This document shows positions 12,266 to 35,429 of a DNA stretch of 37,802 nucleotides, in pieces. Origin of the DNA: Myxococcales bacterium (GTDB taxonomy: Bacteria > Myxococcota_A > Polyangia > Polyangiales > Polyangiaceae); NCBI GenBank assembly GCA_023248745.1, contig JAHFDZ010000006.1:10942-48743 (forward strand). The letters are read 5' to 3'. The notes beneath the pieces were generated by a model, which ran no database searches, had not been told where the DNA came from, and saw nothing but the letters and a program-made list of their open reading frames with translations. A program made the translations under genes and the position numbers. The stretch's first letter is position 1. Each line of letters begins with the position of its first letter.

Positions 12266-13426
12266 CTAGCTCGACAGCACTTCGAAACTGATGCCTGCCT
12301 TTTGGAGGCGCTCGAGCAGCACGTCTTCAAGCGCTGCCACCGGCGTGAGCACCCCATAACGCGCTGGCAAGCGCTTGCGATCGAGCGCAAGTGAAAGCGC
12401 GCACTCCGCGATCATTTTTGACGTCTCAGCGTATCCCGGCTCGCCGCCCTTCACGCGGGTGACCACTCGTTGCGACGGCGTCGTGCCCTCGAACGTAACT
12501 TGGAACCAACCATTTTTTAGCTGCGTATCTGTGGGCCCCTGCCCGCTTGGCCGCGCTTTGCTGAGCAGTCGCCGCGTCGGCTCGAACTGCGCGAGCGCAA
12601 TCAGCGTACCGATGCCCGCAGCGGCACCGACGACAGTGGAAAGATGCTTGACGTGAGCGTAGTGCCCGTAGCTAAACGCAGGGCCGTACGCCGCCACCGC
12701 GCTCGCTGACCGCAAGACAATTGGGCCATCGATCGTTGGAAGTGGACACGCCCAAGCATTGATCGTGCGCTCGTAGTGCAGGCGCGCTTTGCCGCCTGAG
12801 ATACGTCGATCGGTTGCGTGCCTTGGAACAGAAAACTTGGACTTTCGAGCCTCGCCAAAGCCATTGATGGCCGACTGCCAAGTGCCTCCAGAGAACGTGC
12901 TGCCGCCAGTGCGAACGAACCCCGACAGGGTGATTGGCTCGCGATCGCCAAGTTTCTTGACGGTGTAGTAGGCGCCGACGTCGTGCGGAATGCTGTCGAA
13001 ACCGCAGCAGTGAACGATGCGCGATTGGCTCTCGATCGCGACGCCGTCATACTTTTCGATCATGTCGCGAACGAATTGCGGCTCACCCGTAATATCGACG
13101 TAGTCCGCGCCAAACGTGGCGCATGCCTTGACGAGCGGTTCGCCGTGCAAAGCGTACGGCCCAACTGTTGTGAGCACGACGCGCGTCTTTTTGACCATCG
13201 CCTCAAGTGACGCGGGATCTTCAGCGCTCGCCTCGAGAATCGGCAGAGACGCAAGCGCGGGATTCATCGCAACGAGCTGCGCCTTCACTTCGGCAAGTTT
13301 ATTTACGTTACGTCCTGCAAGTGCCCAGCGCAGTTTGGCGGGCCCATTGGCAGCGAGGTACTGGGCCGCAAGCTTGCCGGTGAAACCAGTCGCGCCGTAA
13401 ACGACGATGTCTAAGTCCTTCTTCAT
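12266..13426 (-). CDS. Saccharopine dehydrogenase-like / trans-acting enoyl reductase family protein
   Basis: The ATG at 13426 (386 aa) starts directly on the Rossmann fold, MKKDLDIVVYGATGFTGKLAAQYLA. Family features follow: LRWALAGRNVNKL, VVLTTVGPYALHGEPLVKACATFGADYVDITGE, CGFDSIPHDVGAY, and a GGTWQSAINGFG segment. A hydrophobic stretch (VVGAAAGIGTLIAL) suggests membrane association. Mycobacterial relatives (Rv2953 type) reduce enoyl intermediates of complex lipids in trans; here the substrate is unknown. The Shine-Dalgarno region is poor and is replaced by a GC-rich hairpin. The unusual three-hairpin array lies 84 bp upstream on the same strand and could be its leader. Confidence 0.85.
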   Translation of the reverse strand: MKKDLDIVVYGATGFTGKLAAQYLAANGPAKLRWALAGRNVNKLAEVKAQLVAMNPALASLPILEASAEDPASLEAMVKKTRVVLTTVGPYALHGEPLVKACATFGADYVDITGEPQFVRDMIEKYDGVAIESQSRIVHCCGFDSIPHDVGAYYTVKKLGDREPITLSGFVRTGGSTFSGGTWQSAINGFGEARKSKFSVPRHATDRRISGGKARLHYERTINAWACPLPTIDGPIVLRSASAVAAYGPAFSYGHYAHVKHLSTVVGAAAGIGTLIALAQFEPTRRLLSKARPSGQGPTDTQLKNGWFQVTFEGTTPSQRVVTRVKGGEPGYAETSKMIAECALSLALDRKRLPARYGVLTPVAALEDVLLERLQKAGISFEVLSS

Positions 13427-13427
13427 C

Positions 13428-13447
13428 GGCGGCACTATTGGGCCGCC
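13428..13447 (-). promoter_or_regulatory. Hairpin covering the ribosome-binding region of the enoyl reductase gene
   Basis: GGCGGC (13428-13433) and GCCGCC (13442-13447) form a 6-bp GC stem with an 8-nt loop that ends one base before the ATG at 13426. In the mRNA this would cover the place where a Shine-Dalgarno sequence belongs. It may lower or regulate initiation. Confidence 0.35.
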
Positions 13448-13536
13448 GGCCGGACTCCGCAAGCGCAGGCGTGACGAAACTCATCCGCGGGTGGGGATGG
13501 GGAAAAAAACCAGCGACGCATGACGACGCGGAGTTT

Positions 13537-13567
13537 GCGCGGATTGAAAGGGGTAGGTGACAGTAAA
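13537..13567 (-). repeat. Constant 31-bp repeat, copy 1
   Basis: The plus strand begins GCGCGGATTGAAAGG and ends GGTGACAGTAAA; all 31 bases are identical in the three copies. It forms the loop of hairpin 1. On the minus strand it contains a C-rich run (CACCTACCCCTTTC). Confidence 0.95.
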
Positions 13568-13633
13568 AACCCCGAGCCGGCACAACGTCACTGGCGAACT
13601 CAAATTGTGGGCAACATCGCGAAGGCCGCCGGG

Positions 13634-13664
13634 GCGCGGATTGAAAGGGGTAGGTGACAGTAAA
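13634..13664 (-). repeat. Constant 31-bp repeat, copy 2
   Basis: Identical to copy 1, starting 97 bp later. It is the loop of the best-paired hairpin: 24 of 30 arm positions are perfectly complementary and five of the other six are G-U-compatible on one strand. Confidence 0.95.
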
Positions 13665-13728
13665 CCCGACGACCTTCGCGATATTGCTCACAGAAAACAG
13701 TGCAAGGGGGCGACGCGAGCCCGAAGCT

Positions 13729-13759
13729 GCGCGGATTGAAAGGGGTAGGTGACAGTAAA
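13729..13759 (-). repeat. Constant 31-bp repeat, copy 3
   Basis: Identical to copies 1 and 2, starting 95 bp after copy 2. It is the loop of hairpin 3, whose arms run GCAAGGG..CCCGAAGC and GCTCCGAACCC..CCCTTGC. Confidence 0.95.
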
Positions 13760-13955
13760 GCTCCGAACCCTCGTCGTCCCTTGCGAGAGGAGGTAAGAGC
13801 AAGTCGCAGGCCAGGACACAAAGGGCGCAAAATGTCCAGATTTGTGCTCGGTTACTTCGGAAAACCCAGGCCGTGCGTTCACCCCACCGAACCGGTTTGC
13901 GTTCAGGTGGCAAGGCTACTTGGGTCGGCGGCTCTGAATCAGATACCACTAGGCG

Positions 13956-15485
13956 ATGTATGCGAATCCGTTGCGCGTCGGCCTAGAGACCGAGCGCGTT
14001 GCTCCGCCTTGCGCGTTCGTGATCTTCGGCGCTTCAGGTGACCTCACGCGCCGCAAGTTGATTCCGGCGCTTTACAACCTCAACGTGTCGCGGCTCTTGC
14101 CCGCGAGCTTTGCCATGATTGGCTTCGCGAACACCGAGAGCACAACTGAGCAGTTTCGCGAGAACATGCACGTCGGTACGGCTCAGTTCTCACGGCGCAA
14201 GCCGGTCGAAGATGCAACGTGGCTCGATTTCGCAAGCCGACTCCACTACGTCACCGGCACGTTCGAAGATGCTGCGGCGTACGCTCGGCTGCGCGAGAAG
14301 CTCGAAGAGCTCGACCAGACCGCGGGCACGAGAGGCAACCGCATTTACTACCTTGCGATCCCGCCGAGCCTCTTCCCGATGGCGATCGAAAATCTCGCCA
14401 AGGCTGGCCTCGTCTCTGACCCCAACGATCGGTCGCGCTTCACGCGCATCATCGTTGAGAAGCCCTTCGGTCGCGATCTCGCGAGCGGTGACGCGCTCAA
14501 TCATCAGCTTCACAAAGGATTCGCCGAATCGCAGATCTTCCGTATCGATCACTACCTTGGTAAAGAAACTGTACAAAATCTCCTCGCGTTCCGATTTGGC
14601 AACGAGATCTTTGAACCGCTCTGGAATCGGAACCACATCGATCACGTTCAGATCTCTGTCGCCGAAGACATCGGTGTTGAAGGTCGCGGCAAGTTTTACG
14701 AAGAGGCCGGCACAACGCGCGACATCGTCCAAAATCACCTTTTGCAATTGCTCATGGTCATGGCGATGGAACCTCCCGCCGCGTTTGAGGCTGACGCCGT
14801 TCGCGACGAGAAAGTGAAGGTCTTGCGAGCGCTACGGCCAATCGTCGGCGAATCCGTTTCGAAGCTCACCGTGCGCGGTCAGTACGCGCACGGCAGCTTC
14901 GCGGGCAAACCGGTTGTCGGCTACCGCGAGGAGCCAAACGTCTCGCCACATTCGATGATCGAGACCTACGTTGCGATGAAGCTCGAGGTCGACAATTGGC
15001 GATGGGCGGGCGTACCGATTTACATTCGCGCCGGCAAGCGCCTCACCAAACGTTCCACCGAAATCTCGATTCACTTCAAACGCGTCCCTCATTCGCTGCT
15101 CTCACCGAAGGAGCCGATCACGCCCGACGTTCTCGCGCTGCGCATTCAGCCCGACGATGGCATCAGTCTACGGTTCATGGCGAAGGTGCCCGGACCCTCC
15201 ATGATCCTTCGTCCGGTCAACATGGACTTTCACTATGGTACGACCTTCGCCGAGAGCTCGCCGGAAGCCTACGAACGACTCAACCTCGATTGCATGCTCG
15301 GCGATCCAACGCTCTTTGCGCGTGCTGACGAAGTGAGTGCGGCGTGGCGGTTTATCACGCCGGTTATCGAAGCTTGGCAACACGGCGTGCAGCCCACCTT
15401 TCCGAATTATCACGCGGGCACCTGGGGCCCCGACGATGCGGCGCGCTTGATTGAGAGAGACGGTCGCGCATGGAGGCGTCTATGA
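13956..15485 (+). CDS. zwf: Glucose-6-phosphate 1-dehydrogenase
   Basis: This 509-residue enzyme oxidises glucose 6-phosphate to 6-phosphogluconolactone with NADP+ or NAD+, the entry step of the oxidative pentose phosphate pathway. The N-terminal Rossmann loop is FGASGDLTRRKL (24-35), followed by EKPFGRDL (168-175). The substrate-binding signature RIDHYLGKE lies at 196-204, with the key Lys at 203. RDIVQNHLLQ carries the catalytic His. Length is normal. It starts an operon: its TGA overlaps the opcA ATG. The 530-bp region upstream contains the hairpin array, and no clear promoter was found. Confidence 0.97.
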   Translation: MYANPLRVGLETERVAPPCAFVIFGASGDLTRRKLIPALYNLNVSRLLPASFAMIGFANTESTTEQFRENMHVGTAQFSRRKPVEDATWLDFASRLHYVTGTFEDAAAYARLREKLEELDQTAGTRGNRIYYLAIPPSLFPMAIENLAKAGLVSDPNDRSRFTRIIVEKPFGRDLASGDALNHQLHKGFAESQIFRIDHYLGKETVQNLLAFRFGNEIFEPLWNRNHIDHVQISVAEDIGVEGRGKFYEEAGTTRDIVQNHLLQLLMVMAMEPPAAFEADAVRDEKVKVLRALRPIVGESVSKLTVRGQYAHGSFAGKPVVGYREEPNVSPHSMIETYVAMKLEVDNWRWAGVPIYIRAGKRLTKRSTEISIHFKRVPHSLLSPKEPITPDVLALRIQPDDGISLRFMAKVPGPSMILRPVNMDFHYGTTFAESSPEAYERLNLDCMLGDPTLFARADEVSAAWRFITPVIEAWQHGVQPTFPNYHAGTWGPDDAARLIERDGRAWRRL

Positions 15486-16606
15486 ATATTCCGCTCGATC
15501 AGGTCGATAAACATCTTGCCAAAATGTGGGACGGCGCGACGCGCCACGACCAAGCAACGGCGCGCACCACGCTCCTCACGCTCGTCATTATCGTGACCGA
15601 AGATGCGATGTTGGAACGGGTTAACAAAGTCATCGCAGACGTGGTTGAAGCGCAGCCCGTTCGAACGATCGTCGTGAGCTCTGCGCCCGGCGGCGATGCA
15701 GAAATCATCGCGAATGCCGCGTTGCACATGAACTCGCAAAACCAGCCCAGTGGCGATGCCATCACGCTGCTTGCAAAGGGCAACGCGCGACATTGGCTAC
15801 CGGAGAACATTGACCGGTTCATTTTGTCGGGCATGCCCTGCTGCGTGTGGTGGGTTGGCGATCTTCCCGATCGCGACAATCTGTTCGAGCGCATGGTGGA
15901 GCGCTCCGATCTCACGCTCATCAATTCGGCCGAGATGGACCTCCGCGATCTCAACAAGGTCGCCGACATTGCTGACAAATTTCGACAGACCGCGATCGCC
16001 GATTTCACCTGGGCTCGTCTTCGCGGCATGCAGGACTTGATCGCACGGTTCTTCGATCATCCCGACGCCGCTCCTTATCTCGATGAGCTCACGCGCATCA
16101 CGTTCGCGTTCTCACCGAGAGAAAACGACATCGACGTTGCGAGCACGCGCGTTGGCCTTTTGCTCGGATGGATTTGCCACGCACTTCACCTCGATACGCA
16201 ACACGCAAAGTGGTACCTCAAAAAGGGTGCCGCGCAGATCGTGCTGCATCGCAGCGGCGGAAACTACCCAGAGGTCACGATTCATATCCAACGCGACAAG
16301 CGCCCTGGCGTTCACGACGGTGCGCTTACGCGCATTGAGCTCGCCGCGGGGGCCGACGATGAAGCACTCTTCACCATCGCGCGCCAGGATGATCCAGCCA
16401 ATGTGCTTTGGACGGCCCGCATCCCTAACGTCGTCATCCCACCGCAGGTTATGCACTTCGAGAGCCACAACGAAGGGCGCATGCTTCGCCGTTGTCTCGA
16501 GAATCCGGTGCGTGATCCGCTCTTCGAACAGAGCGTACGTGCCGCGCGCGAGATTCTGCGGAGTGTCGCTCCGCGACTTTCAGGTCCACCTTCGACTTAC
16601 CGATGA
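15482..16606 (+). CDS. opcA: Glucose-6-phosphate dehydrogenase assembly protein OpcA
   Basis: The ATG at 15482 overlaps the zwf stop (ATGA) and is preceded by a GGAGG inside zwf, so it is preferred to the in-frame ATG at 15470. The 374-residue protein shows OpcA features: ATARTTLLTLVIIV at the N-terminus, RTIVVSSAPGGDAEI, CCVWWVGDLPDRDNLFERMVERSDLTLINS, RFFDHPDAAPYLDELTRI and the C-terminal strands YPEVTIHIQRDKR. OpcA is required for active G6PDH in cyanobacteria and is paired with zwf in actinobacteria; the direct coupling here supports the same job. It overlaps the next gene by ATGA. Confidence 0.92.
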   Translation: MNIPLDQVDKHLAKMWDGATRHDQATARTTLLTLVIIVTEDAMLERVNKVIADVVEAQPVRTIVVSSAPGGDAEIIANAALHMNSQNQPSGDAITLLAKGNARHWLPENIDRFILSGMPCCVWWVGDLPDRDNLFERMVERSDLTLINSAEMDLRDLNKVADIADKFRQTAIADFTWARLRGMQDLIARFFDHPDAAPYLDELTRITFAFSPRENDIDVASTRVGLLLGWICHALHLDTQHAKWYLKKGAAQIVLHRSGGNYPEVTIHIQRDKRPGVHDGALTRIELAAGADDEALFTIARQDDPANVLWTARIPNVVIPPQVMHFESHNEGRMLRRCLENPVRDPLFEQSVRAAREILRSVAPRLSGPPSTYR

Positions 16607-17228: not shown

Positions 17229-17301
17229 TACTCGTGGCAGGAGTCGAACCTGCAGGTTCTCCGTTCTGAGCGGAGCGACGTTGCCGTTTGCCTACACGAG
17301 T
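17229..17301 (-). tRNA. tRNA with anticodon CAG (nominally Leu), class I body with short variable loop
   Basis: The 73-nt minus-strand sequence folds as a full cloverleaf. The acceptor stem is ACTCGTG/CACGAGT, followed by T8 A9; the D-arm is GGC..GTC with GG in the loop, A14 and A21. The anticodon stem is CTCCG/CGGAG with loop CTCAGAA. The variable loop AACCT has 5 nt, the T-arm is GCAGG/CCTGC with loop TTCGACT, and the discriminator is A73. The genome gives CCT after A73, so CCA is not encoded. The anticodon CAG reads CUG (Leu), but bacterial tRNA-Leu normally has a long variable arm. The body recalls tRNA-Gln or tRNA-Cys more than tRNA-Leu. It is isolated, convergent with the zwf operon. 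Confidence 0.8.
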
Positions 17302-21856: not shown

Positions 21857-23050
21857 ATGAAACGATGCTCCATTCTTTTTGTCCTCGTCGCAGCCACCGC
21901 ATCTCTCGGCTGCAAGCGCGCGACACCAACCAATGGCGACGCCGGTACAAGCCGTGCCTCCGAGGCAACGCGTGAGCAGGTGTTGCGTGGCATCGGCGAG
22001 TGCACCGCGTCCGAGGTCGCCTCATTTGCAACCAAAGCTGCCACATTTGGCCAAAAGGCAAACGCCGCTGCGACAGTGCCAAGCGACGCCACGCGCAAAG
22101 AAGCACAAGACGCCTGGGTCGCCGCAATCGATCAGTGGGAGAGACTCGAAGTCATGCAGTTCGGCCCGGCGGCCACAAAGGCGCATCCAGGTGGACAAGA
22201 TCTTCGAGGCTCTATCTATGCCTGGCCGCTCACAAGCCGGTGTTTGATTGAGCAGCAAATCGTCAGCAAAGCATACGAGGGCGCAACGTTTTCAACCGCG
22301 CTCTCGAGCAGCCGCGGGCTGGGCGCCGCCGAATATCTATTGTTTTATGCGGCTCCCGACAATGCATGCTCAGCGGGCGCAACCATCAACGCGGATGGCA
22401 TGTGGAACGCCCTTGGCGCAACAGAGATCGCCGCACGACGTCTTGCGTACGCCGGTGCGGTCGCCACCGACATCGCCGCCGTTGGAACGAAGCTCAACAC
22501 CGCGTGGGATCCTGCGCAAGGCAACTTCGTCAATGAACTTGTCAAATCGGTACGCGGCGGCTCGATTTACAAAACGGATCAGACCGCGTTCAACTCGGTG
22601 AGCGATGCTCTCTTCTACGTCGAGGCCGACGTCAAGGACACCAAGGTTGCGCATCCGCTCGGAATCTTGAATTGCACGACCCCGACTTGCCCTGAAGGCG
22701 TCGAGTCGCCGTACGCGAAGCGATCCCTGACGCATATCGTCAATAATCTTGCCGGTTTTCGCAAATTGTTCTTTGGCTGCAACGACGGCAATGGCCAAGC
22801 ATTTGACGACCTCCTGGATGCCATCGGCGCTTCGAGCATCAACACCTCGGTCAAGGTGGCGCTCGAGCAGGCCGAAGCCGCGCTCGCTTCGATAACGTCG
22901 CCCGATCTCGAGACTGCCATTGCGCAACAGAACGACAAAGTGCGGGCTGTTCACACCGCGCTAAAAAAACTCGCCGACGTCCTCAAGACGGAATTCGTCA
23001 CTGTGCTCGACCTCGAGCTTCCGCAACGCGTCGAAGGCGACAATGATTGA
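21857..23050 (+). CDS. Imelysin-family iron-regulated lipoprotein
   Basis: This 397-residue protein has a lipoprotein signal (MKRCSILFVLVAATASLGC). The imelysin domain covers about 50-385, with helices WVAAIDQWERLEVMQFGPA, SIYAWPLTSRCLIEQQIV, the core GLGAAEYLLFY (equivalent to GxHxxE plus YLL, with His replaced by Gly here) and VNNLAGFRKLFFGCN. Imelysins (IrpA, ICMP; EfeO-related) are outer-membrane- or surface-linked proteins induced by iron limitation; the lack of the His argues against a peptidase role. It overlaps the HTTM gene by 8 bp. Confidence 0.85.
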   Translation: MKRCSILFVLVAATASLGCKRATPTNGDAGTSRASEATREQVLRGIGECTASEVASFATKAATFGQKANAAATVPSDATRKEAQDAWVAAIDQWERLEVMQFGPAATKAHPGGQDLRGSIYAWPLTSRCLIEQQIVSKAYEGATFSTALSSSRGLGAAEYLLFYAAPDNACSAGATINADGMWNALGATEIAARRLAYAGAVATDIAAVGTKLNTAWDPAQGNFVNELVKSVRGGSIYKTDQTAFNSVSDALFYVEADVKDTKVAHPLGILNCTTPTCPEGVESPYAKRSLTHIVNNLAGFRKLFFGCNDGNGQAFDDLLDAIGASSINTSVKVALEQAEAALASITSPDLETAIAQQNDKVRAVHTALKKLADVLKTEFVTVLDLELPQRVEGDND

Positions 23051-24404
23051 GCGACTCAGGCGAGCCCTTGAGAAGCAGGTCGACGCGTCCGGCGTCGCGG
23101 TGTTTCGAATGGCGTTTGGCGTGCTCGTCGTTGTGAGCGTCATTCGTTTTTTTGCGTACGGCTGGATCGACGAGCTTTACACCAAGCCAAAGTTCTTCTT
23201 CACGTTCTGGGGCATGTCGCACGTAACGCCGCTCGGTGGGCGGGGCATGCACACGGTGTTTGCCGCAATCGGTCTGCTTGCCCTCATGGTCGCAATCGGC
23301 GCGTTCTATCGGATCGCGATCGTTCTCTTGTTCGCGCTATTTACGTACGTCCAGCTCGTTGACGTCACCAACTACCTCAATCACTACTACCTCGTTTCGC
23401 TGCTCGCGTTTTTGCTGTGCTTCACTCCAGCGAACGCGAAGTGGTCGGTCGACGCTTGGATTTCGCCAGAACGCGCGCGCCAACAATTGCCTGCGTTTTA
23501 CACCTATCTTCTTCGGTTTCAGATCACTGTCGTTTACTTCTACGCAGGTCTGGCGAAAGCAAACGTCGACTGGCTTCTGCACGCGCAACCTTTGAACATC
23601 TGGCTCAACGCGCGAACGAATACCCCAATCATCGGAAGCCTCTTTGCGCTGCCGCATGCGGCCTACGTCATGAGTTGGGGAGGGTTCCTCTTTGATACGA
23701 CGATTCCCTTTTTCATGCTCCAAAGGTGGTCCCGTCCGTACGCCTACGCGGTCATTGTGATCTTTCACGTGTTCACGCAAGTGCTGTTCCCTATCGGAAT
23801 GTTCCCCTCCATCATGGCGACGTCGGCGCTCATCTTCTTTGAGCCAGATTGGCCGCGGCGACTTTTGGCCTATGTCGGCATTAAAGTTGACGAGGCGAAA
23901 GCCGCAAGCCAAGCCGCTCCAATTAATCGCATCGCTCTCTCACTCGTGTTGCTCTACTGCGCGATCCAAATCGGCTTCCCGTTGCGGCATCGTATCTACG
24001 GAGGTGACGTGAGTTGGCATGAGCAAGGCATGCGCTTCTCGTGGAAAGTTATGACCCGCGAAAAGAACGGCAGCGTGACCTATAACGTCACCGATCCCGA
24101 AACCGGACGCACGTGGGAAGTGCTGCCACGCAAGTACCTGACCGATCGTCAGCTTCGCGATTTCTCGACGCAACCCGATATGATTCTTCAACTTGGTCAT
24201 CACGTTGGTGAAGAGCACAGCCGACGTCTAGGACGCAAAGTGCGCGTCACCGTGGATGCCCTCGTCTCGCTCAACGGCCGCCCCGCAGCGCTTCTCATTG
24301 ACCCAAATGTCAATCTTCTTGACATTCGAGACGGCATGGGACTTGCGCGCTGGATCCTCCCTTCACCCCGCAACGCGCCTCCGCACTTTGTGCCAGTGTC
24401 ATGA
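23043..24404 (+). CDS. HTTM / vitamin-K-dependent gamma-carboxylase-like membrane protein
   Basis: This 453-residue protein has multiple transmembrane helices in about residues 18-320 and a C-terminal soluble domain to about 440. HTTM family features are VAVFRMAFGVLVVVSVIRFF, the YLNHYYLVSLLAFLLCFTPA segment, and YFYAGLAKANVDWL near 165-178. The last aligns with the GxKKLDADW region of human GGCX, keeping the second Lys (K172), the proposed catalytic base. VSWHEQGMRFSWKVM recalls the carboxylase region that follows. In animals the enzyme carboxylates Glu using vitamin K; bacterial activity and substrates are mostly unknown. It is coupled to imelysin and to the TonB receptor by overlaps, so an iron-uptake link is likely. 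Confidence 0.85.
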   Translation: MIERLRRALEKQVDASGVAVFRMAFGVLVVVSVIRFFAYGWIDELYTKPKFFFTFWGMSHVTPLGGRGMHTVFAAIGLLALMVAIGAFYRIAIVLLFALFTYVQLVDVTNYLNHYYLVSLLAFLLCFTPANAKWSVDAWISPERARQQLPAFYTYLLRFQITVVYFYAGLAKANVDWLLHAQPLNIWLNARTNTPIIGSLFALPHAAYVMSWGGFLFDTTIPFFMLQRWSRPYAYAVIVIFHVFTQVLFPIGMFPSIMATSALIFFEPDWPRRLLAYVGIKVDEAKAASQAAPINRIALSLVLLYCAIQIGFPLRHRIYGGDVSWHEQGMRFSWKVMTREKNGSVTYNVTDPETGRTWEVLPRKYLTDRQLRDFSTQPDMILQLGHHVGEEHSRRLGRKVRVTVDALVSLNGRPAALLIDPNVNLLDIRDGMGLARWILPSPRNAPPHFVPVS

Positions 24405-26611
24405 GGCTATTTGTAACTAGATCTGTCGTATTTTCGGGAGCGGCACTTGCAATTGTCTCGCGCGCTCGCGCTGAAGAAGACGTGGGTCGTCCGAATGAAG
24501 AGAACGAGGTTCTCGTCACTGGCACGCGTCTCAACCGGGTGGGTGGCTCGGTGACCGTCATCAACCGTGAGGAGCTCGATCGCTTTCACTATGACGACGT
24601 TCACCAAGTTCTCCCGACCGTTCCCGGCGTTTACGTTCGAGGCGAAGACGGTATGGGGTTGCGACCCAATATAGGGCTGCGCGGCGTAAGTTCGGATCGA
24701 AGTAAGAAGATCACGCTGATGGAGGACGGAATCCTCTTCGCGCCTGCGCCCTATTCGGCTCCTGCTGCCTACTACTTCCCCATGATCGACCGCATGCAAA
24801 GTGTTCGCGTCCTCAAAGGTCCAGCGGCGATTGCCTATGGCCCGCAGACGGTCGGCGGTGCGATCGATTTAATCACGCGCGATATTCCATACGAGCGCAA
24901 GGGTACTGCGGACATGTCCCTCGGACAGTTTGCCTTCCGCAAACTCCATCTCACCTACGGCGCTGGCGACGAACGCATGGGCTTCTTCATCGAAGGCATG
25001 CACCTCGCCAACGACGGCTTCAAAGTGCTCGACGGCGGAGGCGACACCGGTTTCGCGCGCAACGAGTGGATGGTCAAGGGACGGTACAGTCCAAATCCCG
25101 ACAGCGAACACTCGCACGAGTTTCAGATCAAGCTCGGATACTCGGACGAGGCCTCGAACGAGAGTTACCTGGGTCTCTCCGGCCGCGACTTCGACAAGAC
25201 ACCTTACCGCCGATATGCAGGTTCCAAGTTTGACCGCATGGAGTGGCATCGAACCCAAATCGTCGTGCGCCACAACGTGCATGCAGCGCGCGATTTCGAA
25301 ATTACGACGACCGCGTATAGGCAGCAGTTTTCGCGATCGTGGAATCGGTACAAAGGGATCGCAGGAGCAGAGACGAACAGCGTTCTCGCAGATCCCGATT
25401 CGTCGCAAAATCAGATCTATTACGCGGCGATGAGCGGCGCGTCCGATTCGTCGAGCCGCGGCGAGCACTTGCTCATCGGACCCAATCAACGCGACTTCTT
25501 ATCGTTCGGAGTGCAGACCCAACTTCGATACACCCAGCGCACAGGCCCCGTTCATCACCGTGCCGAACTGGGCATGCGCTACCACTACGACGAGATCGAG
25601 CGACTGCACACTGAGGACCGTTTCGCGATGACGAACGGTGCTCCCGTGCGCGTGGCGACTGAGCCGACCAACATCTCTGCCGAGAACAAAGCCTCGACAC
25701 ACGCGCTCGCGCTGAACTTCACGGACGCCATGACATGGGGCCGCCTTTCGGTAACTCCTGGTGTGCGGTTTGAATCGATCCACAGTCGTTACGAGGATCG
25801 CACAACGGGCAAGACCGACGGCGCCATCACGCCTGTCGTTCTCCCAGGCGTGGGAGCTTACCTAGGCATCACGCGGAATTTCGGACTGCTCTCTGGGGTG
25901 CATCGTGGGTTTAGCCCTCCACCGCCAGGCGACTCGAGGAACAACAAGCCCGAGCTCAGCGTCAACTACGAAGCCGGCGTTCGCTACAGCGGAATCGCGC
26001 CTGGGAGTAACAAGCTCCCGCTGCGTGCAGAGGCAATCGCGTTCTACAACGACTACTCGAACATCACGAGCATCTGCACGGCGTCGTCAGGTTGTTTAGA
26101 CAAGAATATTGACCGTCAGTTCGACGTCGGTGCAGCCCGCATTTACGGAGTCGAGCTCCTCGCGGAAACGAAAGTCCCGCTACCCAAACGCTACAAGCTG
26201 CCGTTGCGTGCAGTATACACGTACACAAACACCGAGTTCTTGAGCGCATTTAGTGCAGACGATCCGCTCATCGGCAAGGTCCAACCGGGTGACTACATGC
26301 CGTACGTACCTATGCACCAAACGTCGATGGGCGTCGGCATTGAATCTCCGCGGTGGGCACTCAACTTCGCGGGCACCTTTGTGGATTCGATGCGCGAGCG
26401 AGCTGGACGTGAAGAGCCTGCTCGCTATGACAGGACCGATCCGTATTTTCTGCTCGATGTGAGCGGGAGCGTTAATGTAACCAAGAGAGTGCAAATTTAC
26501 GCCAACGCCCGCAATTTGCTCGACAACGTGTACGTCGTCTCACATCGGCCGTTTGGCGCGAGGCCCGGCGCACCACGATGGGTAACGGCGGGCGTGCGCG
26601 TCGACTTCTAA
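24401..26611 (+). CDS. FecA-like TonB-dependent outer-membrane receptor
   Basis: The 736-residue protein has a signal peptide (cleavage near ARA-EE, residue 25). The plug domain (about 45-160) contains VTVINREEL, LPTVPGVYVRGEDGMGLRPNIGLRG, KITLMEDGILFAPAPYSAPAAYYFP and GPAAIAYGPQTVGGAIDLITR, all typical of FecA-type siderophore/ferric-citrate receptors. The 22-stranded barrel ends in GVRVDF with the terminal Phe needed for outer-membrane assembly. It lies last in the Fur-box operon, overlapping the HTTM gene by ATGA. No N-terminal signalling domain is present, so it does not act through a FecI/FecR relay. Confidence 0.93.
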   Translation: MRLFVTRSVVFSGAALAIVSRARAEEDVGRPNEENEVLVTGTRLNRVGGSVTVINREELDRFHYDDVHQVLPTVPGVYVRGEDGMGLRPNIGLRGVSSDRSKKITLMEDGILFAPAPYSAPAAYYFPMIDRMQSVRVLKGPAAIAYGPQTVGGAIDLITRDIPYERKGTADMSLGQFAFRKLHLTYGAGDERMGFFIEGMHLANDGFKVLDGGGDTGFARNEWMVKGRYSPNPDSEHSHEFQIKLGYSDEASNESYLGLSGRDFDKTPYRRYAGSKFDRMEWHRTQIVVRHNVHAARDFEITTTAYRQQFSRSWNRYKGIAGAETNSVLADPDSSQNQIYYAAMSGASDSSSRGEHLLIGPNQRDFLSFGVQTQLRYTQRTGPVHHRAELGMRYHYDEIERLHTEDRFAMTNGAPVRVATEPTNISAENKASTHALALNFTDAMTWGRLSVTPGVRFESIHSRYEDRTTGKTDGAITPVVLPGVGAYLGITRNFGLLSGVHRGFSPPPPGDSRNNKPELSVNYEAGVRYSGIAPGSNKLPLRAEAIAFYNDYSNITSICTASSGCLDKNIDRQFDVGAARIYGVELLAETKVPLPKRYKLPLRAVYTYTNTEFLSAFSADDPLIGKVQPGDYMPYVPMHQTSMGVGIESPRWALNFAGTFVDSMRERAGREEPARYDRTDPYFLLDVSGSVNVTKRVQIYANARNLLDNVYVVSHRPFGARPGAPRWVTAGVRVDF

Positions 26612-30710: not shown

Positions 30711-31055
30711 TCAGCTACCGCGATACGTCGAGTATCCAAACGGGCTCAGCAATAGCGGTACGTGGTAGTGCTGCGCGACATCGCCAACGAAGAACGCGAT
30801 TGTCACTTCAGGAAAGAACCCTTGGTCACCGTGCGCGCTTTGATAGCCGCGGACGTCAAAGGTGAGGCGATAAGTTCCGGTTCGGAAAGCGGCTTCGGAG
30901 AGAAGCGTGCGCAGGCGACCATCGGCATCGGTGACGCCTGTTCCCACTTGAGTGAACGTGCCTGACGTATCGCGATACTCGAGCGTGACCGTCACGCCCG
31001 CAGCGGGTTTGCCGTGCGCCGTATCGAGAATGTGCGTCGTGATGGGGCTGCTCAT
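30711..31055 (-). CDS. uraH: 5-hydroxyisourate hydrolase (transthyretin-like)
   Basis: This 114-residue enzyme hydrolyses 5-hydroxyisourate, the product of uricase, to OHCU. It has the N-terminal THILDTAHGKPA with catalytic His8, RLRTLL, and the closing signature YHVPLLLSPFGYSTYRGS. Length is typical, without a signal peptide. Its ATG overlaps the stop of the fused allantoicase gene. It is the last gene of the purine-degradation operon. Confidence 0.95.
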   Translation of the reverse strand: MSSPITTHILDTAHGKPAAGVTVTLEYRDTSGTFTQVGTGVTDADGRLRTLLSEAAFRTGTYRLTFDVRGYQSAHGDQGFFPEVTIAFFVGDVAQHYHVPLLLSPFGYSTYRGS

Positions 31056-32578
31056 CGTCTCACCAGCTTTTCCAAGCGAAGATTCGTGATCTTGCGCTGC
31101 TCTTCCGCCGCAACGCGTAACTCTGTTTCGCGATCGTGGTTCATGCGCGACTTGGCAAGCACGAGCATTTCGTCAACCGACTTACCTGTCGCGCACACAA
31201 TGTAAATGAAGCCAAACTTTTGCTCGTAACTGTCGTTGACGCTCGTTAGCTCCGCGCGCGTTGCTGCATGAGCATCACTCACCCTTGCCTGCTCGGCCGA
31301 CGACCAGCTTTTGGCGACGCCACTCTGTTCGCGCTTCGCATGCGATTCGCCGATGCGTGGATGCGATTGAAACGCTTCGAGCCAGTCCTTCTCACTCACA
31401 ATTGACCACGCAGCATCACTCGCTGCGACGAGCGCGTCGATCGAACCGAACGGACGCTTCGCAACAAGAGCGCTCACCCAAGCACAGCTTCCGCAACATG
31501 TGCGCAGCTCGTGCGCGAGTGCATCAGGAGGCAACGTTGAGAGAAATCGAAGCCCCACGAGCGCTCTGCCATCCGCCGTTGGCAAACCCCAAAGGCGCAA
31601 ACGACTGATGCCACCGTCGGGGAAAATGCGAACACGTACGTGCGTCGCTTCGGCATGCGCAAGCACATCTTCTTCGTAAAAGTGGCGTGTGTGAGGCTGC
31701 AGCTTTGTGCGCGAGACGAGCGGCGTCCATACGTTGTCGTCGGTCGCGAGTGCTTCAATATTGTCGCTTGTCGTGTTGCAAACTTCGAGCGCGACGCTCT
31801 CTGGGAAATTGCCCTTGAAGTGATTCGTGTCAACTTCGATTCGCGTGATGTGCCCACGCGCAGCAAGCCTCACGACGCACCAATCGGGGGCCTCCTTGCG
31901 TGAGCGCTTGGTTTCCCATCCGTCGCCCATGTTCACCGATCGACCGGGCAGGATCAGGTTGTGTCGCGACCCGAAGAACATGTCGTTGCACGCAACGACC
32001 GCGCCGCCATTTTCGATCGCCGCGAGATCAATTTCTTGCGGCAACCCGATCGGACCAAGAAAGCGCCGATCCGCGATGACTTCTCCGTGCACACGAAGGC
32101 GTGCGACGCCGCCATCGGGATAAATATTGAGCCGTAGGTGCGAGAAGCGCAGCTCGGATGCGATTGCGAATTTGTTAGCCGTATCGCCAAGCAAGTTGAC
32201 CTTTGGCAACACCTCGACCCATTGCACATCGGGCGACATGAGGTCTTCGGGCGTGGGCTGGCCGGCGACCGCACACGCGTCGATCGAACAGGCTTGCGGA
32301 AAGTTGCCCTTGAAGAACGCCGTATCGACAACAACACCGCGCAGAACGCCCGGCGCGCCTAGCCGAATGAGGCAGAAGTCGTACCCTGGCGTGCGGCGTC
32401 TTCGCGACTCCCAACCGTCCATCCACTTGCCACGATCGGTGTACTTGCCGTCGATGAAGATCGCCCTTTCGGGCTTGAGCAAGTTGTCTTTGGACGCGAA
32501 AAAGTCATCGTTCGCATACAGAACCGTTGCGCCAAATTTCTGCGACGCGAGGTCGACCAAGTCTGTGAAGTCGCTCAT
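31052..32578 (-). CDS. alc/uraD: Fusion of allantoicase and OHCU decarboxylase
   Basis: The ATG at 32578 follows GGGAAAGAG and gives MSDFTDLVDLASQKFG, the usual allantoicase start; a TTG at 32623 overlapping the allantoinase stop is an alternative. Residues 1-340 hold the two allantoicase repeats: GKWMDGWESRR..DTAFFKGNFP (about 15-165) and VNMGDGWETKR..DTNHFKGNFP (about 195-330). Residues 341-508 are an OHCU decarboxylase: HELRTCCGSCAWVSALV, SHPRIGE with His406, and FGFIYIVCATGKS (455-467). OHCU decarboxylase makes S-allantoin; allantoicase splits allantoate into urea and ureidoglycolate. The two steps are separated by allantoinase, encoded upstream. Confidence 0.93.
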   Translation of the reverse strand: MSDFTDLVDLASQKFGATVLYANDDFFASKDNLLKPERAIFIDGKYTDRGKWMDGWESRRRRTPGYDFCLIRLGAPGVLRGVVVDTAFFKGNFPQACSIDACAVAGQPTPEDLMSPDVQWVEVLPKVNLLGDTANKFAIASELRFSHLRLNIYPDGGVARLRVHGEVIADRRFLGPIGLPQEIDLAAIENGGAVVACNDMFFGSRHNLILPGRSVNMGDGWETKRSRKEAPDWCVVRLAARGHITRIEVDTNHFKGNFPESVALEVCNTTSDNIEALATDDNVWTPLVSRTKLQPHTRHFYEEDVLAHAEATHVRVRIFPDGGISRLRLWGLPTADGRALVGLRFLSTLPPDALAHELRTCCGSCAWVSALVAKRPFGSIDALVAASDAAWSIVSEKDWLEAFQSHPRIGESHAKREQSGVAKSWSSAEQARVSDAHAATRAELTSVNDSYEQKFGFIYIVCATGKSVDEMLVLAKSRMNHDRETELRVAAEEQRKITNLRLEKLVRR

Positions 32579-32619
32579 CTTCTCTTTCCCGGTTGGGCAA
32601 TGCCCATGAACGAAAATGG

Positions 32620-33978
32620 TCAAGGTGCGGAAATAACACGACCGGTCGAAGACGGCGAAAGCGTTCCATCAAAGATTCGCCTGCCACGCAGATAGGTAGC
32701 GCACACTCTCCCGGTCACTGAGCGCTCATCATAGGGCGTGAGCTTGTGGCGATGCTCGAGCTTCGATCCCGCGATCGTTTGGATCGCATCGGGATCGAAT
32801 ACCGTAAGGTCCGCGTCGAAGCCCGTGGCGATTGCGCCCTTCTTGCCCCAAAGCCCGACCAGCTTCGCCGGCGTTTCGCACATCCATTTTGCAACGTCAC
32901 CGAGCGTGGCGCCGCGCTGCTGTGCTTGCGACCAAATCGCGATGAGGCCGAGCTGCAACGACGCGATACCTCCCCATGCCTTCGAGAAGTCGCCCGAGTC
33001 GCAGCACTTGAGGGCGGGCGTTGCAGGGGAGTGATCCGTCACGACTTGCGTGACAATTTCGTCCTTGAGCCCTCGCCAAAGGCGCTCTCGATTCTCGCGT
33101 TCACGGATCGGAGGTGCACACTTGAACTCCGTAGCGCCATCGGGGATCTCTTCTGCGACAAACGTTAGGTAGTGAGGACACGTTTCGGCGCTGATGGTGA
33201 CACCCGCCTCTCGTGCGTCGCGAATGTTGAGCAGTGCATCTGCTGACGAAAGATGAACGATATGCGCGCGAACGCCGAACTCGCGCACGAGTCGTATCAC
33301 CATGTCAACGGCCTGGTTTTCGGCCGCTTTGGGTCGCGACTCTAAGTAGTAAATATACTTTCTCAATTCGGCCGGCGATAAATTGTGCTGCGCTTTGAGT
33401 GCTTCGTCGATAGGACCCGATACCTCGGCGTGCACCAACAGCGGCGCGCCGGTCTCGGCGAGCAAAGGCAGCGCACGTCGCAGGTCGTCTTCGAGCACGT
33501 GCGGAAACTCGTCGACGCCTGACTCGGCGAGAAAGCACTTGAATGCAACGGCTCCGTGCGCGCGCAGCGGCACGAGCTCGTGGCCATTGCTCGGCAAGAG
33601 ACCACCCGAAAATGCAACATCGACCCACACATTTTTCTCTGCCGCTTCGCGTTTGCGCTCGATGCCGCTTACCGTGGTGGTCGGCGGCAAGCTGTTCAGC
33701 GGCATGTCAACGAGCGTGGTCACGCCGCCTGCGGCCGCCGCGCGTGTGGCGCTCGCAAAGCCTTCCCACTCGGCGCGTCCTGGATCGTTAATGTGCACGT
33801 GCGAGTCAACGAGCCCAGGCATCACGACAAGCGAGCCGAAGTCGTCAAGTGGAACGCCTTGCTCGATCGATTCGTAACTATCAATGCGAACAATTGTTTC
33901 GCCCGTGATGTGCACGGCCGCGGCGCGCAGTCCGTCTTGCGCGAGGACGCGCGTGCTTCGAACGATGCGACGATCCAT
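32620..33978 (-). CDS. allB: Allantoinase
   Basis: With the ATG at 33978 the protein has 452 residues. Cyclic amidohydrolase metal ligands are visible: H60 and H62 in VDSHVHINDPGR, the Lys147 that becomes carbamylated in AVAFKCFL, H183 in LVHAE, H239/H242 in HIVHLSSAD and D315 in VTDHSP. The enzyme opens allantoin to allantoate. The N-terminal start could be the TTG at 34008 that overlaps the previous stop, but the family begins near the chosen ATG. It is followed 41 bp later by the fusion gene. Confidence 0.94.
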   Translation of the reverse strand: MDRRIVRSTRVLAQDGLRAAAVHITGETIVRIDSYESIEQGVPLDDFGSLVVMPGLVDSHVHINDPGRAEWEGFASATRAAAAGGVTTLVDMPLNSLPPTTTVSGIERKREAAEKNVWVDVAFSGGLLPSNGHELVPLRAHGAVAFKCFLAESGVDEFPHVLEDDLRRALPLLAETGAPLLVHAEVSGPIDEALKAQHNLSPAELRKYIYYLESRPKAAENQAVDMVIRLVREFGVRAHIVHLSSADALLNIRDAREAGVTISAETCPHYLTFVAEEIPDGATEFKCAPPIRERENRERLWRGLKDEIVTQVVTDHSPATPALKCCDSGDFSKAWGGIASLQLGLIAIWSQAQQRGATLGDVAKWMCETPAKLVGLWGKKGAIATGFDADLTVFDPDAIQTIAGSKLEHRHKLTPYDERSVTGRVCATYLRGRRIFDGTLSPSSTGRVISAP

Positions 33979-34004
33979 TGACGGCGAGGGTAAACCTCTT
34001 TGGA

Positions 34005-35429
34005 TCAAAACAACTTAAAGAGCACCTGAAACGCACCCAAACACATCTCGTCGAGCGTCGTCTCGCCGAGCTTCACGTTCTGCGGCGCAGTGAGGCCTTG
34101 CTGCTTGAGCGCGCCCGCCACTGCGAGGTTGTCGAGCGTGTTGTTGTACGTGCACCGCATCTTGACCTTGTCACCAGGATTGAGAATCGGCAGCTTGTCG
34201 AATGCGGCGTCATACGAATAGCTGCGCTGCCAGTTGAAGTCCCATCGCGGCTCTTGAAGGAGGCACTGGCTGGTTCCGTCTTTGCGCTCGACCCAAATTT
34301 TTTCGTCGACGCCGACGTAGTGCATGTGCGCGCCGATGCCTGAAAGATGCAGTGGGGGCGTCGCAAAGCCGCCTATCTTTTCGGGCACCGTAAAGACCAT
34401 CGTCTCGGTATGCGCGGTCGTTCCTGCCGGAATCTCAAACGCCACGCCCTTGGTGGGGTCGTCGGGACCACTCATCAATCCGGTACCACTGATTGTGGCG
34501 TCGCTCTGATAGTTGCCCTGCAAGAGTGCGTATCCAAAGTACGTCGGAGTGGAGGCCGTGTAGCGGAGCTGCACCTTGGTTGAGTCAGGCGCCATCACGC
34601 CTGCGTGCGGGTGGTAGTGAACCTGCATCACGAAGAGCGTATTGGGTTCGATTGGCGTGCCCGCATCCGGCGGAAATTCGGATGGCCTGCTGCCCGGAGC
34701 CCATGCCCCAAGGAGCGCGTTGCTGCTGATGCCGGGGCCGCCGAAGCAGTCATAGGACTCGCCGACGCTTGCCTTCTTCAGGCTCTGACGGTTGGGGTCC
34801 GAGAAAAGTAACGCGTGATGCACAATTTTCGGATTGCCCGGGATGAAGTAGCTGCCGTTGAGGTATTGGCGCTCCGTGATTTTGGGATCGAGAACGAAAC
34901 ATCGAAACTGGTCCTTCGAACCAATGGGCGTGTACGTCGACGTTGGCACGAGCTCGATATTGGGAGTCGCAAGTTCGATCTTGGTTGGCGGCGTCGCCAC
35001 GGGGAGATCGGCAGGGTTGCCTTCGGCCATGCCGGTATCGGACCATGCCTTGATCGTCGCGATTTGCGCTTCGGTGAGACGCTCGTCATTTTGCCAAGGC
35101 AGCGGTGGCGTGCATTCGCCCGTGTCGTGAGCTCCCCACGGAGGCATTCGCTTCGCGCTCGTTTCTTCGACGATCGCCCCTGCCATATTGCGCGCGTGTA
35201 AGTACGTGGTCAGCGCAAAGGGCGCGATGCCCCCTTCGGTGTGACACGTTTGACAGCGGGCCTGAATGATGGGCGCGACGTCCTTGTTGTAGGTAACGCC
35301 GCCAGCTGAAGCGTCGGCCACAACCGCCGCGCCATCCGCCACGCCCGCCTCTTGCGGCAGCGGAGGTGCCGTTTGGACCGTTGAAGAACAGCCGAATACC
35401 GTAACTGCCAAAGCAGCAAACCACCGCAT
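34005..35429 (-). CDS. Lipoprotein with heme c and copper ascorbate-dependent monooxygenase domains
   Basis: The ATG at 35429 follows GGAG and gives MRWFAALAVTVFGCSS, a lipoprotein signal. Residues 45-135 are a c-type cytochrome domain: C59-x-x-C62-H63 (RCQTCHTEG) and Met95 (KRMPPW) as probable distal ligand. Residues 150-470 resemble the copper type II monooxygenase (PHM-like) fold: HH204-205 in KIVHHALLFSD, H271 and H273 in VHYHPH, and H368/H370 in IGAHMHYVG. Such heme-fused members in Myxococcota and Planctomycetes are uncharacterised; an oxidative periplasmic role is inferred. It lies 26 bp before allB on the same strand. Confidence 0.82.
   Translation of the reverse strand: MRWFAALAVTVFGCSSTVQTAPPLPQEAGVADGAAVVADASAGGVTYNKDVAPIIQARCQTCHTEGGIAPFALTTYLHARNMAGAIVEETSAKRMPPWGAHDTGECTPPLPWQNDERLTEAQIATIKAWSDTGMAEGNPADLPVATPPTKIELATPNIELVPTSTYTPIGSKDQFRCFVLDPKITERQYLNGSYFIPGNPKIVHHALLFSDPNRQSLKKASVGESYDCFGGPGISSNALLGAWAPGSRPSEFPPDAGTPIEPNTLFVMQVHYHPHAGVMAPDSTKVQLRYTASTPTYFGYALLQGNYQSDATISGTGLMSGPDDPTKGVAFEIPAGTTAHTETMVFTVPEKIGGFATPPLHLSGIGAHMHYVGVDEKIWVERKDGTSQCLLQEPRWDFNWQRSYSYDAAFDKLPILNPGDKVKMRCTYNNTLDNLAVAGALKQQGLTAPQNVKLGETTLDEMCLGAFQVLFKLF

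Follow-up and report, generated by a model that had tools for sequence, protein, structure and literature searches.

We identified a feature that is best read as a small RNA gene not described before and of narrow distribution. It lies in the 37,802-nucleotide stretch of DNA from a Myxococcales bacterium that was analysed here (the window). Three tandem hairpins are encoded on the minus strand, where they follow a sigma-54-type promoter match and end at a terminator-like run of U's (Table 1). Our best reading, held tentatively, is that they form a stand-alone small RNA with its own promoter and terminator, whose loops would act in trans on mRNA starts.

Table 1. Features of the hairpin locus and its neighbouring genes (window coordinates)
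Feature	Position	Strand	Basis and remarks
Saccharopine-dehydrogenase-like gene, downstream, same strand	12266-13426	-	Pfam PF03435; ATG at ~13426 read from sequence
Run of 7 U's, terminator-like	13503-13509	-	Adjoins the end of the last stem (13509-13510); 8 U's in G003
Predicted small RNA, ~285 nt, three tandem hairpins	13503-13787	-	Both ends predicted, from promoter distance and U-tract
Hairpin unit 1, last transcribed, terminator-like	13509-13595	-	Loop 13537-13567; folding, arm shuffles
Hairpin unit 2	13606-13692	-	Arms 13665-13692 and 13606-13633, loop 13634-13664; folding, arm shuffles
Hairpin unit 3, first transcribed	13702-13784	-	Loop 13729-13759; folding, arm shuffles; 5' arm conserved in G003
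Upstream block CCTGCGACTTGCTCTTACCTC	13789-13809	-	Common to the three RNA-carrying genomes (alignment)
Sigma-54-type promoter CTGGCCTGCGACTTGCT, -24 GG, -12 GC	13798-13814	-	Match to YTGGCNNGN4TTGCW
zwf, glucose-6-phosphate dehydrogenase, divergent neighbour	13956-15485	+	Pfam PF00479/PF02781

The loop sequence GCGCGGATTGAAAGGGGTAGGTGACAGTAAA occurs in three exact copies of 31 nt each, which start at 13537, 13634 and 13729 on the plus strand (spacing 97 and 95). Each copy is enclosed by a stem of 21-28 pairs. The stems are unrelated in sequence to one another, and a comparison between different units revealed no significant likeness. With the loop kept unpaired, the minus-strand stem energies of the three units were -33.6, -48.5 and -35.8 kcal/mol (z -5.8, -10.1 and -4.8). 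When the arms of each unit were shuffled 1000 times, no shuffled stem was as stable as the real one. Arms preferred their own partners by ~10 kcal/mol or more, since own-partner duplexes reached -36.9, -51.1 and -38.7 kcal/mol as opposed to -14 to -27 kcal/mol for cross pairs. An additional A in units 1 and 3 pairs with the first loop U, leaving 30 nt free. An ungapped scan of 252 kb of the genome for 20/20-pair hairpins with loops of 24-40 nt returned only unit 2. These results confirm the description, in an earlier note on this DNA, of three identical 31-nt loops on differing, self-pairing stems. The own-partner pairing also supports its view that the intervals are arms of adjacent hairpins and not CRISPR spacers.

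Several known classes were considered for the locus. CRISPR was rejected, because the inter-repeat DNA consists of paired arms and no cas Pfam was found among the window proteins scanned; the Rfam model CRISPR-DR9 scored 13.7 bits at the locus against a cut-off of 45 bits. A minus-strand open reading frame (13308-13949) crosses the array, but the distances between loops place them in different frames, and a coding explanation was rejected. The only Rfam family above cut-off in the window was tRNA (17229-17301), and a search of the locus alone gave mir-6302 at 25 bits against a cut-off of 90 bits.

To determine the distribution of the RNA, we searched the class with the loop pattern (318 genomes) and with a covariance model, R1 (310 genomes). 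A second model, R2, was run with laxer filters on 39 near relatives. The earlier note had proposed searching for the loop in the same genome and its relatives, and the search returned three local copies plus one copy in each of two congeners, G001 and G003. Allowing up to three mismatches, all copies in the window's own genome are at this locus. By the class-wide pattern and R1 searches, only these two congeners carry the RNA besides the window's genome, and among the ~310 genomes of the class no carrier from outside the genus was detected. The R2 search found no copy in genome G002, whose zwf has a different upstream gene without such a loop; a weak R2 match in G016 (E 0.22) was rejected, as it also had no such loop. 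Among GTDB contigs an exact 18-mer gave 11 matches, with the full loop reached in the congener only. There was no loop match in IMG/VR and none in phages and plasmids. The RNA looks genus-restricted and regulatory.

The two congeners differ in their copies. G001 carries one hairpin only, surrounded by other genes than in the window. Its loop is identical save for one missing U, and its stem is unrelated in sequence to the window stems, yet almost fully paired (z -3.4). In G003, which matches contig JAHFDY010000076.1 ('Myxococcales bacterium isolate nzgw256'), the orthologous site (L004 1473-1568) holds a single loop, between flanks 80-85% identical to the window. Its 5' arm pairs with the 3' arm of window unit 3 (-38.8) and its 3' arm with the 5' arm of window unit 1 (-31.5), while its own arms pair at only -21.1, a value that 7% of shuffles reach. 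Either the array collapsed to this single unit when loops 3 and 1 recombined, or an assembly of ~4x coverage skipped units; likewise, either the RNA of G003 is decaying or the low-coverage assembly is wrong. Under either reading, the match of its arms to units 3 and 1 indicates an ancestor with at least two units.

Covariation was evaluated on four hairpins from two species. In this alignment 75% of the cells were paired, and 13 of the 22 pairs showed double changes. The covariation score was 0.64 compared with 0.26 in shuffles, and 0 of 500 shuffles reached 0.64. When the partners were slid by one to three columns, every covariation measure dropped. Thus, in these four hairpins, a small sample, the arms cannot have drifted freely, and the co-varying stems previously claimed for the window are borne out with the congener hairpin included.

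We also examined which strand would be transcribed. In a strand-blind arm alignment of the three units, the minus-strand reading gave 13 G-U against 4 A-C positions, and 15 against 4 once the congener hairpin was added (one-sided binomial p = 0.01). The wobble bias reported before (about 11 against 2-3) therefore holds in direction, with close figures, and this excess points to a minus-strand RNA. The per-unit fold z-scores were -3.9, -6.5 and -2.6 on the minus strand versus -0.15, -3.7 and -0.45 on the plus strand. The full predicted minus-strand transcript folded at -120.4 kcal/mol (z -6.7) into the three hairpins and almost nothing besides. We consider it very probable that the locus yields a transcribed minus-strand RNA.

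The opposite reading is that no RNA is made, and that the array is a DNA-level element, either a series of binding sites or a small element, mobile or palindromic, that lies between divergent genes. The nearly even spacing of the direct repeats and their position between such genes would suit this reading, and so would the other genomic place in G001. However, the one-strand G-U excess and the covariation argue against it, as do the alignment of promoter and U-tract with the stems, the restriction to three genome copies and the lack of any phage or plasmid match. We regard this explanation as quite improbable. The likeness to REP elements moved by RAYT transposases, suggested earlier, was rejected by the search of the window's own genome, since the three genome copies are all at this locus and none is dispersed.

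The limits of the putative gene were then assigned. The sigma-54 consensus has a single match in the window (0.09 expected) and a single match in the 252 kb genome sample. Counting 12 nt from the -12 GC, transcription is predicted to start at ~13787, ~3 nt ahead of the first stem (13784). The element is conserved in G003; in G001 the block is kept and the -24 GG is changed to GA, so that a full match is present in 2 of the 3 RNA-carrying genomes. In a search of 4 genomes, the upstream block was found with 0-1 mismatches at these RNA loci only, and the block CCTGCGACTTGC(T/G)CTT(A/C)CCTC precedes the hairpin in G001 as in the window. At the other end, the terminator scan admits loops of 3-8 only, and the hairpin with its U-tract was read from the sequence instead. 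We detected rpoN in the window's genome and in G001; the assembly of G003 is 88% complete. A -24/-12 promoter at the right distance and an rpoN gene are thus both present, as for a sigma-54-dependent small RNA, with the -24 of G001 off consensus. On this sequence evidence the RNA is probably driven by sigma-54. Neither promoter nor terminator was part of the earlier note, and together they indicate that the repeat is an RNA gene.

An alternative is a cis-acting leader, in which the hairpins and terminator would govern read-through to the downstream same-strand gene. The ATG of the saccharopine-dehydrogenase-like gene lies ~77 nt beyond the end of the predicted RNA, and in G001 a same-strand open reading frame begins ~120 nt downstream. 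But the downstream genes in the window and in G001 are unrelated, and attenuation does not require a loop kept identical three times. A leader function is therefore unlikely.

Other genes of the window were noted as well. Directly after zwf lies a gene for an OpcA-like glucose-6-phosphate dehydrogenase assembly protein (15470-16606, plus strand). Imelysin-like, HTTM/vitamin-K-dependent-carboxylase-like and TonB-dependent receptor genes stand in a row at 21857-26611 (plus strand). At 31052-34008 (minus strand), an allantoicase/OHCU decarboxylase fusion beside an amidohydrolase represents purine (ureide) breakdown genes.

To predict the function of the RNA, we examined possible partners of its loop. 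The transcribed loop CACCUACCCCUUUC is C-rich, and the earlier note had suggested that it could pair with Shine-Dalgarno regions. One M48-like lipoprotein gene has a 13-nt complement to the loop in its ribosome-binding site (AAAGGGGTAGGTGGGAAGAAATATG); a match of this length is no rarer than expected by chance, and it shrinks to GGTAGGTG in G003. The M48-like peptidase lipoprotein gene (L056, reverse strand, start codon at ~1491 in plus coordinates) lies directly downstream of a protein-kinase gene. A bulk pairing test against 170 gene starts revealed nothing beyond C-richness, and 9 of 60 shuffled loops did as well. Action of the loop on mRNA starts is proposed with reserve, at somewhat less than even odds.

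A serious rival, although we consider it rather unlikely, is a protein decoy, in which the same sigma-54-driven RNA would use its 30-nt loops to bind and sequester an RNA-binding protein, in the manner of CrcZ and Hfq/Crc. Conservation covers all 30 nt of the loop, more than a pairing seed requires, the copy number ranges from one to three, and CrcZ offers a precedent as an RpoN-dependent RNA with repeated binding motifs (PMC8395346). However, the candidate proteins fail. Hfq was found in none of the three RNA-carrying genomes, and CsrA was not detected in G001, although G001 carries the RNA; its lone loop would also make a poor sponge. CsrB/RsmZ-type sponge RNAs consist of repeated hairpins with GGA in their loops. 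They resemble the present RNA in showing one motif on repeated hairpins and differ from it in that GGA is absent from the loop of the transcribed strand. The CsrB-type sponge put forward in the earlier note is accordingly disfavoured, by the loop and by G001.

We compared the predicted RNA with published small RNAs. The nearest analogue in setting is Pxr of Myxococcus xanthus and relatives, an intergenic RNA of ~108 nt in which three stem-loops follow a predicted sigma-54 promoter and the SL1/SL2 sequence is conserved across myxobacteria (PMC5568312, PMC5684412). Myxobacterial host, sigma-54-type promoter and number of stem-loops would all agree with a divergent relative of Pxr. But the stem-loops of Pxr are short and unlike each other, the RNA lies beside pxrR among other gene neighbours, and its published primer sequences do not contain such a loop (a comparison by primers and description), whereas here one loop is presented three times in ~285 nt. 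We find descent from a common RNA highly improbable.

CrcZ, CrcY and CrcX of Pseudomonas are likewise RpoN-dependent and intergenic, with one binding motif several times per RNA, but they are 407 nt long with A-rich Hfq motifs, in contrast to the C-rich 30-nt loops and missing Hfq found here (PMC8395346). NrsZ, also from Pseudomonas, is intergenic, RpoN/NtrC-dependent and of similar length (~226 nt); it differs in having the conserved motif ACAGGCAG, in being processed and in its target rhlA, and no sequence in common was seen (PMC8395346, PMC9308961). NmsRA and NmsRB of Neisseria are tandem siblings of three stem-loops each that expose UC-rich anti-Shine-Dalgarno loops, but these two RNAs are 70% identical including their stems, have -10/-35 promoters and do not carry a long, invariant loop on stems of unrelated sequence (PMC5362039). 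As far as these descriptions tell, none of Pxr, CrcZ, NrsZ and NmsR repeats a single long loop on stems unlike each other.

The genomes agree in the promoter block, in the pairing of the arms and in the loop; they differ in the sequence of the stems, in the number of copies (1-3) and in genomic location. We infer that this division fits a trans-acting RNA with a working loop. In the mechanism we favour, a sigma-54 activator would answer a signal, for example nutrient state, and the RNA would be made from its promoter and end at the last hairpin and U-tract. Each hairpin would serve as a scaffold, whose stem sequence may change provided that pairing holds. The single-stranded loop (UUACUGUCACCUACCCCUUUCAAUCCGCGC), present in 1-3 copies per RNA, would be the conserved, active part, and through its C-rich sequence it would pair with target mRNAs at G-rich sites around their translation starts. 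Points against this mechanism are the GA at -24 in G001, the poor pairing of the lone G003 hairpin, the low number of carriers (three genomes), the failure to detect Hfq in any of them and the weakness of the target matches. A bolder proposal, which we regard as possible but doubtful, is a new class of 'loop-display' RNA. Here, long stems free of sequence constraint would serve solely to present an invariant loop of 30 nt, recombination between loops would enlarge or shrink the array, and the ligand of the loop, RNA or protein, would be new to known small RNA families.

To our knowledge, the number of small RNAs described in myxobacteria is small, and no Hfq was found in the genomes that carry the present one. 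In this RNA, selection splits the parts cleanly, as the stem must pair and the loop must stay, which makes the active part obvious and usable as bait or as a target for mutation. Since sister species carry one-copy and three-copy versions, the effect of repeat number can be tested.
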